The notes beneath the pieces were generated by a model. That model saw only the letters and a list, made by a program, of their open reading frames with translations. It was not told the DNA's origin and searched no databases. From the NCBI RefSeq assembly GCF_039645565.1, contig NZ_CP147914.1:865573-929572 (forward strand): a DNA stretch of 64,000 bases. Reading direction: 5' to 3'. The translations under genes and the position numbers were made by a program. This stretch comes from Sulfurimonas sp. HSL1-2. GTDB lineage: Bacteria; Campylobacterota; Campylobacteria; Campylobacterales; Sulfurimonadaceae. Of the stretch, positions 27,925-47,075 are shown piece by piece (within the stretch, counting starts at the first letter, position 1; every line of letters starts with the position of its first letter).

Positions 27925-29223
27925 ATGAACAACCGCGAAATTTCCGAGAGGGACCTGCGCCATATCTGGCATCCGTGTACGCAGATGAAAGATCACGAAT
28001 TTCTGCCGCTCACGCCGATCAAAAAGGGGAACGGTGTCTATCTCGAGGATTTCGACGGCAACTGCTATATCGACGCGGTGAGCAGCTGGTGGGTCAACCT
28101 TTTCGGCCATGCGAACCCGATCATCTCCTCGGCGGTCAAAACCCAGGCCGAAACGTTAGAGCACGTTATTTTGGCCGGCTTCACCCACGAGCCGGTTGTT
28201 CGTCTTTCCGAACGCCTGGCGGCGCTGACACCGGAGGGGCTAACGCGCTGTTTTTACGCGGACAACGGCTCGAGCGCCATTGAAGTTGCCCTGAAAATGG
28301 CCTATCACTATTATAAGAATATCGGAAAAGAGCGGCCGCTTTTCATCTCGCTGACGAACAGTTACCACGGCGAGACGATCGGGGCCCTTTCCGTCGGGGA
28401 CGTGTCGCTCTACAAAGAGACCTACGGACCGCTCCTGCTGCACACGATCCAGACACCGGTACCGGCCGATCAGAGCGAGGAGGCCGCGTTAGCTGCCGCG
28501 GTGGAGTTGGAAGCCCTGCTCAAGGCCCGCGGGGAGGAGGTCGCAGCCCTCATCGTCGAGCCGCTGATCCAGGGGGCGGGGAACATGCATATGTACCATC
28601 CGCGCTACCTGAAAGAGGCGCGAAAACTGTGCGATGACTATGACATTATGTTGATCGCCGATGAAATTATGACGGGATTCGGACGAACCGGAACGATGTT
28701 TGCCTGCGAACAGGCGGGAATTACCCCGGATCTGATGACCCTTTCCAAGGGGTTGACCGGTGGTTATCTGCCGCTTTCTGTTACGATGACCACGGAAAAA
28801 GTATACGAGGCGTTCTACTGCGACTACAACCTCTATAAAGCATTTTTGCATTCGCACAGCTATACGGGCAATGCGCTTGCCTGCGCCGCGGCCAATGCCA
28901 CGCTCGATATCTTTGAACTCGACAATGTCATCGAAGCCAACCGCAAACTCTCTGCGATGATGGCGGAGGGACTCAAACGTTTTGAAAGCCTGCCGAACGT
29001 CAAGTCGGTGCGGCAGACGGGGATGGTCGCCGCGGTGGAACTGCAGGGGTACGCTCCCGAGGAGCGTATCGGGTTGAAGGTCTTTGATTTCGCACTGACC
29101 AGAGGGGTGCTGCTGCGCCCCCTGGGGCCGGTCGTCTACTTCATGCCGCCCTACATTATTACTGAAGAGGAGCTCACCTACGTGATGGATACGGCCTACG
29201 AGGCAATTACGTCACTGTTGTAG
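27925..29223 (+). CDS. bioA: Adenosylmethionine-8-amino-7-oxononanoate aminotransferase
   Basis: 432 aa PLP enzyme that converts KAPA to DAPA in biotin synthesis using SAM as amino donor. The N-terminal IWHPCTQMKDHE is specific to BioA. The PLP-binding lysine lies in TLSKGLTGGYLPLS, and the ADEIMTGFGRTG segment is intact. It stands alone, divergent from ppiD, with GGAAGGG before the ATG. No other bio genes are in the window. A structured repeat follows the stop. Confidence 0.95.
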   Translation: MNNREISERDLRHIWHPCTQMKDHEFLPLTPIKKGNGVYLEDFDGNCYIDAVSSWWVNLFGHANPIISSAVKTQAETLEHVILAGFTHEPVVRLSERLAALTPEGLTRCFYADNGSSAIEVALKMAYHYYKNIGKERPLFISLTNSYHGETIGALSVGDVSLYKETYGPLLLHTIQTPVPADQSEEAALAAAVELEALLKARGEEVAALIVEPLIQGAGNMHMYHPRYLKEARKLCDDYDIMLIADEIMTGFGRTGTMFACEQAGITPDLMTLSKGLTGGYLPLSVTMTTEKVYEAFYCDYNLYKAFLHSHSYTGNALACAAANATLDIFELDNVIEANRKLSAMMAEGLKRFESLPNVKSVRQTGMVAAVELQGYAPEERIGLKVFDFALTRGVLLRPLGPVVYFMPPYIITEEELTYVMDTAYEAITSLL

Positions 29224-29232
29224 TATTGAAAT

Positions 29233-29425
29233 AAAAGTGCAGAATATCTGCGTGCGAGCGCTCCAAGAGCACTTCTTTCAGGGCGCACTCTGCTGATGTA
29301 GTGAAGCGGAATTCCGCAATGAAGTGAGGACAACGAGAACACAGCGTTAGCGTAGGTATCTGGGCTTTCGAGGAAACATCGCTTCGCGAGCAGTACCCTT
29401 GTTTTGCTCAGATGCCGTATAAAAG
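29233..29425 (+). repeat. Structured dispersed repeat, copy A (expanded)
   Basis: This copy shares with two others a 19-nt core (29337-29355: gaacacagcgttagcgtag). Stem 1 pairs 29237-29242 with 29248-29253. Stem 3 pairs 29355-29365 with 29406-29416 over 11 positions, counting G-U pairs. Compared with copies B and C it has longer sequence between the CTGCTGA element and the core and a 40-base loop in stem 3. It fills the gap between bioA and the stop codon of the convergent gene. Pairing is seen directly; whether it acts as RNA or DNA is unknown. Confidence 0.7.
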
Positions 29426-30004
29426 TTAGGAGAGCATACTCTGCCGGAGCATCAGGATCCGGCAGCTCTTCTCCAAAACGGCCAGCTGCTTCGCCATCTC
29501 ATGCAGGTCACGGTTGTAGGCGTAGATGCCGTAGCCGCGGATGACGACCAGCTCCAGGTCGGAATTCAGCAGCCGTTTGGGGATCTCGGTGGAAGCACGC
29601 TCGTACCACTGGTCGAAGGAGCGGGGGTCATAGACTTCCACACGGGGCATCTCCTTGATCCCGAAGTAGTCCATGGGCTCGATGATGGGGTGCAGCAGGC
29701 TGTAGGCCATCGTATTGGGCGGCATCGAGAAGGTGATGAACTTCGCATCGCTGATCTGACGGTAGATGCTGTGGTGGATGGCCGCGTCGATACTGGCCTC
29801 GTTCCAGCGGTAGTCTTTCTGGAAATAGAGTTCGATCAGCTGCTGCTCGTTCATATGGTCGAAGATGGTGTCTTTCGTATTGATAATGAAACGGCTGTTG
29901 TCCGATTTGGCCGAGACGCTGCCGTGGTAGATGCTGAAGAACTCTTTGCGGAACATCGAGAGGGAAAAAGAGACGAGCTGTTCTTTGAGATGCTGTTTGT
30001 TCAT
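29426..30004 (-). CDS. Class II aldolase/adducin-fold protein lacking zinc-ligand histidines
   Basis: 192 aa with the class II aldolase/adducin fold: FRKEFFSIYHGSVSAKSDNSRFIINTK is split as the early strand-turn-strand, and HHSIYRQ precedes the core. In active members zinc is held by HxH and a later HG motif. Here the matching segments read FITFSMPPNTMAYS and IRGYGIYAYN, so all three histidines are replaced. This suggests a non-enzymatic or repurposed protein, as in adducin. It is a single gene; its stop abuts repeat copy A. Function is unknown. Confidence 0.78.
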   Translation of the reverse strand: MNKQHLKEQLVSFSLSMFRKEFFSIYHGSVSAKSDNSRFIINTKDTIFDHMNEQQLIELYFQKDYRWNEASIDAAIHHSIYRQISDAKFITFSMPPNTMAYSLLHPIIEPMDYFGIKEMPRVEVYDPRSFDQWYERASTEIPKRLLNSDLELVVIRGYGIYAYNRDLHEMAKQLAVLEKSCRILMLRQSMLS

Positions 30005-37220: not shown

Positions 37221-37305
37221 TTATGTTTAGGCAACCCGGCCGTCTCAGTGAGACCCGTAGGCTTTCCGTCCCCGTTTCGCAACGAGTTTGGCATTATCTA
37301 CATAA
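37221..37305 (-). promoter_or_regulatory. GEMM-I type riboswitch aptamer (c-di-GMP or cGAMP class)
   Basis: Read on the minus strand it shows all GEMM-I parts in order. P1 is TTATGT (37300-37305) with ACATAA (37221-37226). Next comes the linker ending in CCAAAC, then P2 CTCGTT-GCGA-AACGGG with a GNRA tetraloop. The conserved joining sequence GGACGGAAAGCC (37260-37271) follows, then P3 with the hairpin GTCTC-ACT-GAGAC (37242-37254). It ends with GCCGGGTTGCC (37230-37240). The P3 and joining sequences resemble Geobacter-type variants, some of which bind 3',3'-cGAMP; the specificity base appears to be G (37292), favouring c-di-GMP, but the linker alignment is uncertain. A TATAAC -10 lies at 37324-37329. 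Confidence 0.82.
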
Positions 37306-44289: not shown

Positions 44290-45678
44290 ATGGAAAAAAT
44301 GTGGTCCGGCCGTTTCAGCGCCTCAGCCTCTTCGCTTCTAGACCAGTTTAACGCCTCGATCATGTTCGACCGCGAACTGTACCGCGAAGACATCGAAGGT
44401 TCATTGGCACACGCCGCCATGCTGCAGAGCCGCGGCATCCTCAGTGCAGAAGAACTTGAAGCGATCCGCGGGGGACTGGCACAGGTACGTCAGGAGATCG
44501 AATCGGGCGAATTCGAGTGGAATATCAGCGACGAAGACCTGCACATGGCGATTGAAAAACGCCTCACCGCGCTCATCGGCGACGCCGGCAAGAAACTGCA
44601 TACGGCCCGCAGCCGCAACGACCAGGTGGCCGTCGACTTCCGTCGCTACGTTCTGCGCAAGGACCTCGAGATCGCCGGTCAGCTTAAAACCCTGATGCAG
44701 ACCCTCATTGACATTGCCGGCAGGCATACGGAGACACTGCTGCCGGGGATGACGCACCTGCAGCATGCCCAGCCGATCAACTTCGGTTTCCACCTGCTGG
44801 CGTACGCGAGCATGTTCAAACGCGATATCGACCGTCTCCTTTCCAGCCGCGAGCGCAACAATGTCTCCCCGCTGGGCTGTGCCGCACTGGCCGGTACCCC
44901 GCACAATATCGACCGCAGCTTTACCGCGCATGAACTGGGCTTTGACAGTGTCAGTGTCAACTGCCTGGATACGGTCAGCGACCGTGATTTCGCCCTGGAG
45001 ATCCTCTTTAACATCTCGACGATGATGATGCACGTCTCCCGCCTGAGCGAAGAGCTGATCCTCTGGTCGAGCTATGAATTCGGTTTTGTCGAACTCTCCG
45101 ACGAATACTCGACGGGCTCCTCGATTATGCCCCAGAAGAAGAACCCGGACGTCCCGGAACTGCTGCGGGGAAAAACGGGCCGTGTCTACGGCGCGCTGAT
45201 GGGACTGCTGACGGTGATGAAGGGGCTGCCGCTCGCCTACAACAAAGATACCCAGGAGGACAAAGAGGGGGTCTTCGATGCCGTGGCAACAGCGCACATC
45301 TCCCTCGAGATCCTTAACGAAGCCCTCAAGACGATGACGGTCAAACCGGAGAACATGCTGGCAGCTTCGAAGAAAGGGCATCTGAGCGCCACCGACCTGG
45401 CCGACTACCTCGTCGAGCGCTGCGGGGTGCCGTTCCGCGAAGCGCACTTCATTACGGGTAAGGCCGTCGCCCGCGCCGAAGTCCTCGGAATAGACCTGAG
45501 CGAGATCGCCTTCGGCGAGCTCAAGGCCATTGACGAGCGTATCGGCGAAGATGTGATCCCGCATCTTCAGCTGGCACACTCCATGAACGCCCGTACCTCC
45601 TCCGGCGGGACGGCGACGGTACGCACGCTCGAACAGATCGTGCACTTCGAAAACTACCTCAAGGAGCTTGATTTATGA
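44290..45678 (+). CDS. argH: Argininosuccinate lyase
   Basis: 462 aa. It splits argininosuccinate into arginine and fumarate, the last step of arginine synthesis. The N-terminal MWSGRFSA, the [12 protein letters not shown] segment and the superfamily signature [12 protein letters not shown] are present. A TAAAAT-type -10 and GGAG precede the ATG. The stop overlaps the OsmC-like gene by four bases. No other arg genes are in the window. Confidence 0.97.
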
Positions 45679-46142
45679 AAGTAACGATTTCCCACCTGGA
45701 TGAGATGCGTTTCGAAGCAAAAACGGACCGCGGACAGAGCTTTGTCATTGACTGCCCGGTGATCTCGCCGATCGAATATTTCCTCTCCGGCCTTGTCGCC
45801 TGTACGACCAGCGACCTCATTGCCATCCCGAAAAAGCAGGGCAAGACGGTCACGAACCTCAGTGTCGAGGGTGAGGTCGTACGCAACGAAACACCGCCGT
45901 GCAAGTTCAACACCCTTCACCTCGACTACCGCTTTGACTCCGATGCCGACGATATGACGGCGCTGCGCTGGGTCATGGGCAGCATCGAGACCTACTGCTC
46001 GACGATCAACACCGTCCGTGATACGACGAAGATCAGCTACTCCGTCACGCACAACGGTAACGTACTGCGTGAAAACGAAGAGATTATCAGTGGGCAGGGT
46101 GGCAATATCGACTTCGGTGAAATCGAAGCCTGCCCTAGCTAA
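45675..46142 (+). CDS. OsmC family protein
   Basis: 155 aa. OsmC/Ohr-fold protein with the two conserved cysteines in [10 protein letters not shown] (near residue 58) and [10 protein letters not shown] (near residue 105), which in relatives reduce organic peroxides. The N-terminal strand pattern ([21 protein letters not shown], split) is typical of YhfA-like OsmC members. It is translationally coupled to argH, and no regulator of the OhrR type is nearby. Confidence 0.88.
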
Positions 46143-46192
46143 GCCGAAACTCCTCTACACGCCGCAAACCCTTTTCTAGGTCCTTTGTTCCC

Positions 46193-46220
46193 CTTCTTTT
46201 TTGCTTGTCCAAAAAAGAAG
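46193..46220. repeat. Inverted repeat with A/T-run arms
   Basis: CTTCTTTTTTG (46193-46203) and CAAAAAAGAAG (46210-46220) form a perfect 11-bp stem with loop CTTGTC. The T-run is inside the stem rather than after it, so it does not look like an ordinary terminator. Another segment just downstream (46231-46247) could pair with 46180-46200 instead. Confidence 0.55.
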
Positions 46221-46348
46221 CCGAACCGGGAAGAAAAAAGGACAAAGCGGCTGCCGCACGAAACACGCTTTTAACGCACTTCATATTCACTATTACGTGG
46301 ACATTCCAAGCCGGAATTTTTTAAAAGTATTTGTTTGTATGGGGAGAT

Positions 46349-46437
46349 AAAGCGCAGTGCAGCTGCGCGTGAGCTCTCTGCTGAAGAGAACCCAGTGTTA
46401 ACGTAGTCGCAGGAGCTTGGCCCCTGCGGCGTATGGT
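46349..46437 (+). repeat. Structured dispersed repeat, copy B
   Basis: Stem 1 is GCGCAG (46352-46357) with CTGCGC (46363-46368). Stem 2 is CTCT (46376-46379) with AGAG (46385-46388). The core is 46388-46406 (gaacccagtgttaacgtag). Stem 3 pairs 46406-46416 with 46420-46430 at 10 of 11 positions around a 3-base loop. It ends against the stop codon of the HIT gene on the other strand, as copy A does with its neighbour. Confidence 0.75.
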
Positions 46438-46794
46438 TTATAAAAAGTCTTTCGGGTCCGCGTCTGCGAAGTGGCCCCAGCGGAGTCTGGCACCGCCGAG
46501 AATGTGGAAATGGAGGTGCTTGACCTCCTGGCCGCCGTTTTCCCCGATATTGGTAATGACACGGTAGCCGCTCTCTTTCACATCAACCTTTTCGACTACT
46601 TCCTGGATAAATGCAGTCATAGCGGCCATCATCTCCGGCGTCACGTCGTTGAAGCTGTCAACGTGGGTTTTGGGAATGGCGAGCACATGGACCGGGGCCT
46701 TGGGATTGATGTCGTGGAAGGCGATAAAATCGTCGTTTTCATGCACCGTGTTGGCACTCAGTTCATTGTTGGCGATTTTGCAGAAAAGACACAT
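46438..46794 (-). CDS. HIT family nucleotide hydrolase (HinT-like)
   Basis: 118 aa. It starts CLFCKIANNEL and ends with the histidine triad HLHFHILGG, the nucleoside phosphoramidase/Ap4A-type active site. HinT proteins hydrolyse AMP-linked substrates such as lysyl-AMP. It is a single gene on the minus strand, divergent from pheS, with repeats at both sides. A HIT gene beside pheS is also found in Campylobacter. Confidence 0.94.
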   Translation of the reverse strand: MCLFCKIANNELSANTVHENDDFIAFHDINPKAPVHVLAIPKTHVDSFNDVTPEMMAAMTAFIQEVVEKVDVKESGYRVITNIGENGGQEVKHLHFHILGGARLRWGHFADADPKDFL

Positions 46795-46905
46795 GAATGT
46801 TCCTTGAAAGAGCGTTTTTGTGATTGTAGCATAGAAGCCTTTGAGGCTAACCTGCTTTGAATCGGAGGGGTTTCGGTATTGATTTTAAAGCAGGTGATTT
46901 CAGAG

Positions 46906-46988
46906 ACAAAGCGCCGACGGCGCGCGAGCCCGCTGCTGAAGCGAACTTAGCGTTAGCGTAGCTGTAGGGGCTTTGCTCCTGCAGTGTA
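46906..46988 (+). repeat. Structured dispersed repeat, copy C
   Basis: Stem 1 is GCGCC (46911-46915) with GGCGC (46919-46923). Stem 2 is CGC (46931-46933) with GCG (46941-46943). The core is 46943-46961 (gaacttagcgttagcgtag). Stem 3 pairs 46962-46971 with 46975-46984 at all ten positions counting G-U. Its arms differ from those of copies A and B while pairing is kept. Unlike those copies it lies between divergent genes (HIT and pheS), about 110 bases upstream of the HIT start. Confidence 0.75.
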
Positions 46989-47075
46989 ATTGATTAATAA
47001 TACTGCCCTTTAAATCTCTTTGGATACAATACGCGCAAGATAAATGGGGGAGACGTCCCCGGGAAGGAGCCACGG

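Follow-up and report, generated by a model that had tools for sequence, protein, structure and literature searches.

Three copies of a short sequence with a common core and three stems, in which the letters change and pairing is kept, raise the question of what kind of genetic element they represent: a new RNA motif, a REP-like repeat or a small non-autonomous mobile element. They lie in a stretch of 64,000 nucleotides (the window) that corresponds to positions 865573-929572 of the single-contig 2.52 Mb genome of Sulfurimonas sp. HSL1-2 (G000) and has a GC content of 57-59%. Inspection of the sequence places copies B and C at 46349-46437 and 46906-46988 and the start of copy A at 29233, as in the original prediction, and sequence and alignment together bear out the three stems and the common core. 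The structure could be refined: the three stems stand, stem 2 being a 4-bp stem with the loop GCYRA, and are joined by additional pseudoknot-type helices, PKa, PKb1 and PKb2. Copy A does belong to the family, as a long form with hairpin modules in the junction between stems 1 and 2, in the stem-2 loop and in the stem-3 loop, and because of these insertions its match to our covariance model (R1) is partial. The features of the three copies are as follows (window coordinates).

29233-29420, + strand: copy A, a long form that contains extra hairpin modules (R1 match at G000:894876-894995, 44.9 bits, partial)
27925-29223, + strand, and 29426-30004, - strand: neighbours of copy A, a class-III aminotransferase gene and an aldolase-II gene
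29260-29286, + strand: extra hairpin module of copy A in the stem 1/stem 2 junction, missing in short copies (read by eye)
29292-29332, + strand: module of copy A after the GCTGA loop (TGTAGTGAAGCGGAATTCCGC...GAGGACA)
29366-29405, + strand: module of copy A in the stem-3 loop (TTTCGAGGAAACATCGC...CTTGTTTT), common to the own-genome copies L019, L032 and L039
46349-46433, + strand: copy B, short form (R1 match at G000:911916-912009, window 46344-46437, 88 bits, E 4e-17)
45675-46142, + strand, and 46438-46794, - strand: neighbours of copy B, an OsmC-like gene and a HIT-family gene, which make this a convergent intergenic site
46352-46368, + strand: stem 1 of copy B, GCGCAG with CTGCGC
46372-46382, + strand: helix PKa of copy B, AGC (46372-46374) with GCT (46380-46382) in the stem-2 loop, showing G-C/A-U covariation
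46376-46388, + strand: stem 2 of copy B, CTCT with AGAG, loop GCTGA
46389-46402, + strand: PKb helices of copy B, AAC (46389-46391) with GTT (46397-46399) and GT (46395-46396) with AC (46401-46402)
46403-46430, + strand: GTAG tag (46403-46406) and stem 3 of copy B (46406-46416 with 46420-46430)
46908-46988, + strand: copy C, short form (R1 match at G000:912475-912564, window 46903-46992, 94 bits, E 1.6e-18), intergenic between the HIT gene (start 46794) and pheS (47076, + strand), which diverge from each other
46911-46923, + strand: stem 1 of copy C, GCGCC gac GGCGC
46927-46937, + strand: helix PKa of copy C, AGC (46927-46929) with GCT (46935-46937)
46931-46943, + strand: stem 2 of copy C, CGCT with AGCG
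46944-46957, + strand: PKb helices of copy C, AAC (46944-46946) with GTT (46952-46954) and GC (46950-46951) with GC (46956-46957)
46958-46985, + strand: GTAG tag (46958-46961) and stem 3 of copy C (46961-46971 with 46975-46985)

We consider it likely, at a probability of about 0.72, that these copies belong to a small non-autonomous dispersed mobile element with a core of about 85-95 nt, whose structure is an enzyme substrate and whose loops carry optional modules.

Copies were searched for by BLAST with copy B, which returned three more, then with core-based patterns and then with R1, a model of 90 positions. The genome itself holds about 20 copies, 17 of them clear and a few weaker by R1, so that the repeat extends well beyond the three from which it was predicted. 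R1 matches occur in 40 of 60 relatives, with a maximum of about 40 copies in one genome, and in 32 of 249 evenly drawn Campylobacterota genomes, from the family of the window and three others; the named genomes matched by pattern scan are from Sulfurospirillum, Sulfurimonas, Sulfuricurvum, Sulfurovum, Hydrogenimonas and Arcobacter. The hosts are many free-living sulfur-cycle relatives of Campylobacter. A BLAST search with copy C gave no match in plasmid records, and viral contigs yielded a single pattern match. We discarded a match in a Xanthobacteraceae bin (L124), which is a pattern match only and fails under the model, and one in a soil bin labelled 'Proteobacteria' (L127), where an element of the Sulfurospirillum type sits in what is probably a mis-binned assembly.

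The fold, with three hairpins and two small pseudoknots, is conserved far better than the letters. In the alignment of 12 own-genome copies, 96.1% of 333 pair cells are paired and 15 of 29 pairs have changed on both sides, whereas shuffled controls average 81.9% and reach the observed value in 0 of 500 cases, and 29-47% remain paired when the partners are shifted by one to three columns. Among 99 copies from other genomes, pairing is 97.0%, 23 of 27 pairs have changed on both sides, and 655 cells are double-changed against 194.5 expected (matched by 0 of 500 shuffles). The compensated changes, and with them the selection on structure that had been proposed from three copies, thus hold on this much larger alignment.

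With no fold assumed, mutual information was computed for every pair of alignment columns in 93 copies. The 15 highest-ranking pairs all belong to stem 1, 2 or 3, apart from 25-35 (G-C in 51 copies, A-U in 41) and 49-54 (C-G 50, U-A 39, U-G 3), and 42-52 (A-U 83, G-C 10) comes within the first 17. These three pairs define two interleaved pseudoknot-type arrangements directly 5' of the GTAG-tagged third hairpin: PKa, in which GRGC pairs with GCY of the stem-2 loop, and PKb, in which RAC pairs with GUY and the enclosed GY with the RC that comes next. They were not imposed by the alignment, since the model that aligned the larger sets contained neither PKa nor PKb. Taken alone, the pseudoknot helices are 99.1% paired and have 96 double-changed cells against 36.3 expected (0 of 500 shuffles), and the second unit of L175 has GUC...GAC where AAC...GUU is usual, two compensated changes at once. 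A tree-based count gives at least 43 switches of the PKa pair, against a shuffled mean of 55, a figure of limited weight, since there is little signal in a tree built from 90 nt. Position 45 co-varies with pair 49-54 (C45 with U-A, U or A45 with C-G), which could reflect a tertiary contact or shared ancestry.

Immediately 5' of hairpin 3, nearly all of 177 distinct copies carry YTAG (U57, giving GTAG, in 155; C57, giving GCAG, in 20). Among the unpaired residues, A47, G56 and A58 do not vary in this set, and the tag residue G59 pairs nearly throughout with C/U83 (GC 161, GU 12, AU 3, CG 1). Stem 3 also tells the two strands apart: across the same copies it contains 239 G-U against 13 A-C cells, or 145 against 11 when the mostly G-U pair 67-75 is left out, an excess that a fold of the opposite strand would reverse; therefore the given strand is the folded one, although the asymmetry outside stem 3 is weak (36 against 21). 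RNA is more likely than single-stranded DNA as the folded molecule, the G-U test being compatible with DNA too. The folded strand would form hairpin 1, then an H-type pseudoknot through PKa, then the second small pseudoknot through PKb, and then the YTAG-tagged hairpin 3, ending in CGU. A trans-acting enzyme might recognise this single-stranded folded element during copying, as TnpA-REP does REP hairpins, and by this analogy we infer that the structure is conserved because it is recognised as a single-stranded substrate.

Orthologous sites, compared in two sister genomes (G006 and G007) and, for sites B and C, in further sisters, are polymorphic for the element. Site B is occupied in G003, G004, G006 and G007, and the copies in G007 and G004 differ from our own by an apparent whole-copy replacement, while site C is without the element in G006, G005 and G001. 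Of the remaining own copies, those at 2329259 and 238242 are missing at the matching G006 sites, that at 464319 from both G006 and G007, and that at 1342457 from G007, and the site of copy A (894876) is empty in G007 and filled in G006. Presence and absence at orthologous sites, as for MITE-like elements, is thus found for five own copies (G006 and/or G007) and for site C. Most of these empty/filled comparisons show blurred edges, and some 'empty' sites could be deletions instead of sites that never held a copy.

Copies are almost all intergenic and occur in every orientation to the neighbouring genes (same/same 37, opposite/opposite 26, same/opposite 21, opposite/same 16 among the copies scored, by simple ORF calls); the element is therefore not tied to one gene side. 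The genes flanking the copies in the window are mutually unrelated, and some copies lie just upstream of start codons. Head-to-tail tandem arrays with a unit period of 86-96 bp are found, as are head-to-head pairs. The intergenic location, the free orientation and the tandem and inverted arrays speak against cis-regulation and favour a small non-autonomous mobile element, and the copy number, mixed orientation and empty/filled sites agree with the dispersed repetition and the REP-like or small mobile nature suggested at the outset. By a hand count in five genomes, with three own-genome copies added to the main list, 69 of 106 copies are co-oriented with replication if the origin is assumed near coordinate 1 and the terminus mid-genome, a bias too weak, and too confounded with gene orientation, to be used. 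In G035, a head-to-head pair lies in the spacers of rRNA operons, in four near-identical copies (L361-L364), and should for that reason be co-transcribed with the rRNA; we rejected these copies as candidates for an autonomous element, as they are the repeat itself, lodged in the rRNA spacer between tRNA genes and 23S.

The hairpin loops are free to gain and lose extra modules. Whole hairpin modules in the stem 1/2 junction and in the stem-2 loop distinguish the orthologous copies of B and C in sister genomes, and the signature of the stem-2 module, GCGGAATTYCGC, is found at five places in the own genome, three of which are elements (464319, 894876, 1654209) and two chance matches inside genes. 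By eye, the junction module apparently occurs in both orientations among L016, L023, L026 and L028. In L152 and L142, an extra palindrome, TTAGCGTAGCTAA, stands just 5' of stem 1 and reuses the GTTAGCGTAG core. An outer inverted repeat (AATGCCATTAAG ... CTTAATGGCATT, also read by eye) encloses the element at loci L281, L284, L291, L328 and L330 of G005 and G033, where it is a possible closing stem. Because lineages carry different outer modules, either outer hairpins or an outer inverted repeat, the element ends are not sharply defined.

A scan over offsets gave no consistent fixed-length target duplication. Flanking direct repeats of 17-48 bp are present in eight non-tandem copies (L168, L117, L155, L164, L149 and L054; L351 and L325), cases chosen after looking from 158 copies. 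At a score of at least 18, flanking duplications are found in 6 of 85 copies of a first set, the tandem L116 among them, against 0.05 expected, and in 2 of 73 copies of a second set against 0; L054, with a lower score of 11, is counted because its empty site is known, while L116, L151, L137 and L157 (tandem or hairpin-module cases) were set aside by inspection. Several of the repeats end at a stop codon or begin at a start codon. At L054 (G000:2329259), it is the right repeat that agrees with the empty site in G006, the left one differing from that site mainly at synonymous positions; the duplications of L054, L117, L168 and L351 all lie at gene ends and differ mainly at synonymous codons, as if these gene ends had been recoded or imported. 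The duplications are possibly long target duplications of variable length, or imported DNA captured by homology on one side.

The search for a mobiliser covered two enzyme families. Y1 transposases (PF01797; RAYT/IS200) are absent from our genome and from seven other copy-bearing genomes (G003, G005, G006, G007, G013, G021 and G035), and some PF01797-free genomes are complete and rich in copies; the transposase with a REP-like target that the original prediction called for is thus not found, as a Y1 enzyme, in the own genome. No R1 match lies within the ~1.5 kb examined around the Y1 loci of relatives, no transposase lies beside the element at any copy examined, and we know of no autonomous version of it. 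A reverse transcriptase (RVT_1, PF00078) is absent from nine of the 12 genomes searched, all nine copy-bearing (G000, G004, G006, G007, G022, G035, G055, G246 and G284). The element seems to rely on some enzyme different from a resident Y1 transposase; the mobilising enzyme is either encoded elsewhere or lost from the own genome, and the agent may be absent today.

Given these results, it is possible, if doubtful, that we are looking at a REP family in the strict sense, in which GTAG-tagged hairpins are spread by a RAYT (TnpA-REP, a Y1 HUH enzyme) and the remainder is a BIME-like linker. REPs are palindromes of 20-50 nt preceded by a conserved unpaired GTAG, with the RAYT gene flanked by the repeat. 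GTAG repeats are reported in epsilon-proteobacteria, Sulfurovum NBC37-1 included (PMC3733652), so that the third hairpin by itself may already have been catalogued. As in the REPs, BIMEs and REPINs of the GTAG superfamily (PMC3733652), tagged hairpins are dispersed between genes in high copy number, in inverted and tandem arrangement and with G-T pairs in their stems, and the folded substrate is strand-specific, as in the TnpA-REP model (PMC8266576). Unlike these, however, the conserved unit measures ~90 nt and comprises three stems as well as two pseudoknots, the last G of the tag is paired in the stem, optional hairpin modules sit inside loops, and neither the genomes nor the Y1 loci surveyed above link the copies to a RAYT gene; a classical REP with its resident transposase is not what the own genome contains. 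It is unlikely that the RNA form is itself the moving or recognised species, a pseudoknotted, SINE-like molecule that spreads by means of some enzyme and integrates at gene ends with long variable duplications. A retroposed small RNA, of which the folded transcript is reverse-transcribed into new sites and leaves such duplications behind, would account for the RNA-like strand asymmetry, the pseudoknots and the 17-48 bp repeats, and is nevertheless very unlikely in view of the nine copy-bearing genomes devoid of RVT_1 and of duplications that affect only about 5% of copies, several of which look not so much like plain target duplications as like gene ends that were recoded.

The strong RNA-type covariation and the copies just upstream of start codons would also suit an RNA that regulates in cis, be it a riboswitch, a leader or a terminator, or a family of sRNAs that act in trans, a highly improbable reading with four neighbour orientations at comparable frequency, unrelated flanking genes in the window, orthologous sites without the element, no U-tract after hairpin 3 and no Rfam match; gene context and empty sites led us to disfavour the cis-regulator. 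It is most improbable that pairing is kept by mutation alone, through quasipalindrome correction or gene conversion between copies, and that the structure has no role. The near-perfect Watson-Crick stems, the tandem copies and the apparent whole-copy replacement at site B speak for such processes, but one would not expect quasipalindrome correction to link PKa and PKb, interleaved helices of 2-3 bp that are 98-99% paired and yet vary, and the unpaired A47, G56 and A58 are invariant as well. Among the options first put forward, the best fit is a mobile element with a structured motif in it, and the neighbourhoods speak against a stand-alone regulatory RNA.

Pneumococcal BOX, Neisseria NEMIS and enterobacterial ERIC are dispersed intergenic stem-loop repeats, BOX and ERIC being modular, and the element resembles all three in its nature and BOX and ERIC in its modularity; to our knowledge their sequences are unrelated to it and no double pseudoknot has been described for them. 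For miniature elements derived from IS200/IS605, a plausible analogy lies in their subterminal hairpins and in single-stranded substrates specific to one strand, but IS200/IS605 elements leave no flanking duplications, whereas some copies here have them, and no TnpA was detected here. The integron attC site (core RYYYAAC...GTTRRRY, with gene cassettes between sites) was dismissed, as the core of the element reads GTYARCG and adjacent units lie a few bases apart, with no cassette between them. BOX, NEMIS and ERIC are among the families listed in PMC2267715. The best functional analogue is provided by the repeats bcr1-bcr18 of the Bacillus cereus group, which are 100-400 bp long, interspersed, MITE-like and mobile, several with conserved secondary structures and about half of their copies transcribed, and for which the mobiliser is unclear (PMC6542083; PMC3446304). 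Unlike bcr repeats, which belong to one species group, the element spans several families of Campylobacterota, a different phylum, and has no TTTAT motif that we could see.

Rfam release 15 gave no match at E<=10 around copies B and C and none for copy A in a whole-window gathering scan, and for 12 other loci the sole match was a chance-level one to CsrC; a literature search, covering open-access articles and few subscription journals, found no paper on the complete element. We class it as a variant of the REP/MITE kind without an Rfam match, larger than GTAG-tagged REPs and, unlike them, pseudoknotted. An elaborate pseudoknotted repeat under clear selection offers new material for studying the spread of REP/MITE-like elements, its modular loops and its occupied and empty sites in sister genomes make mobility testable, and it deserves masking or naming in the annotation of its host genomes. 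Two other features of the window were recorded: a second, unrelated dispersed repeat at 46184-46258 (CTTTTTTGCTTGTCCAAAAAAGAAGC..., terminator-like), with dozens of copies of 81-98% identity in the own genome and the genus, and a c-di-GMP-I-GGC riboswitch at 37226-37301 on the - strand, with a score of 60.4 bits (gathering score 59).
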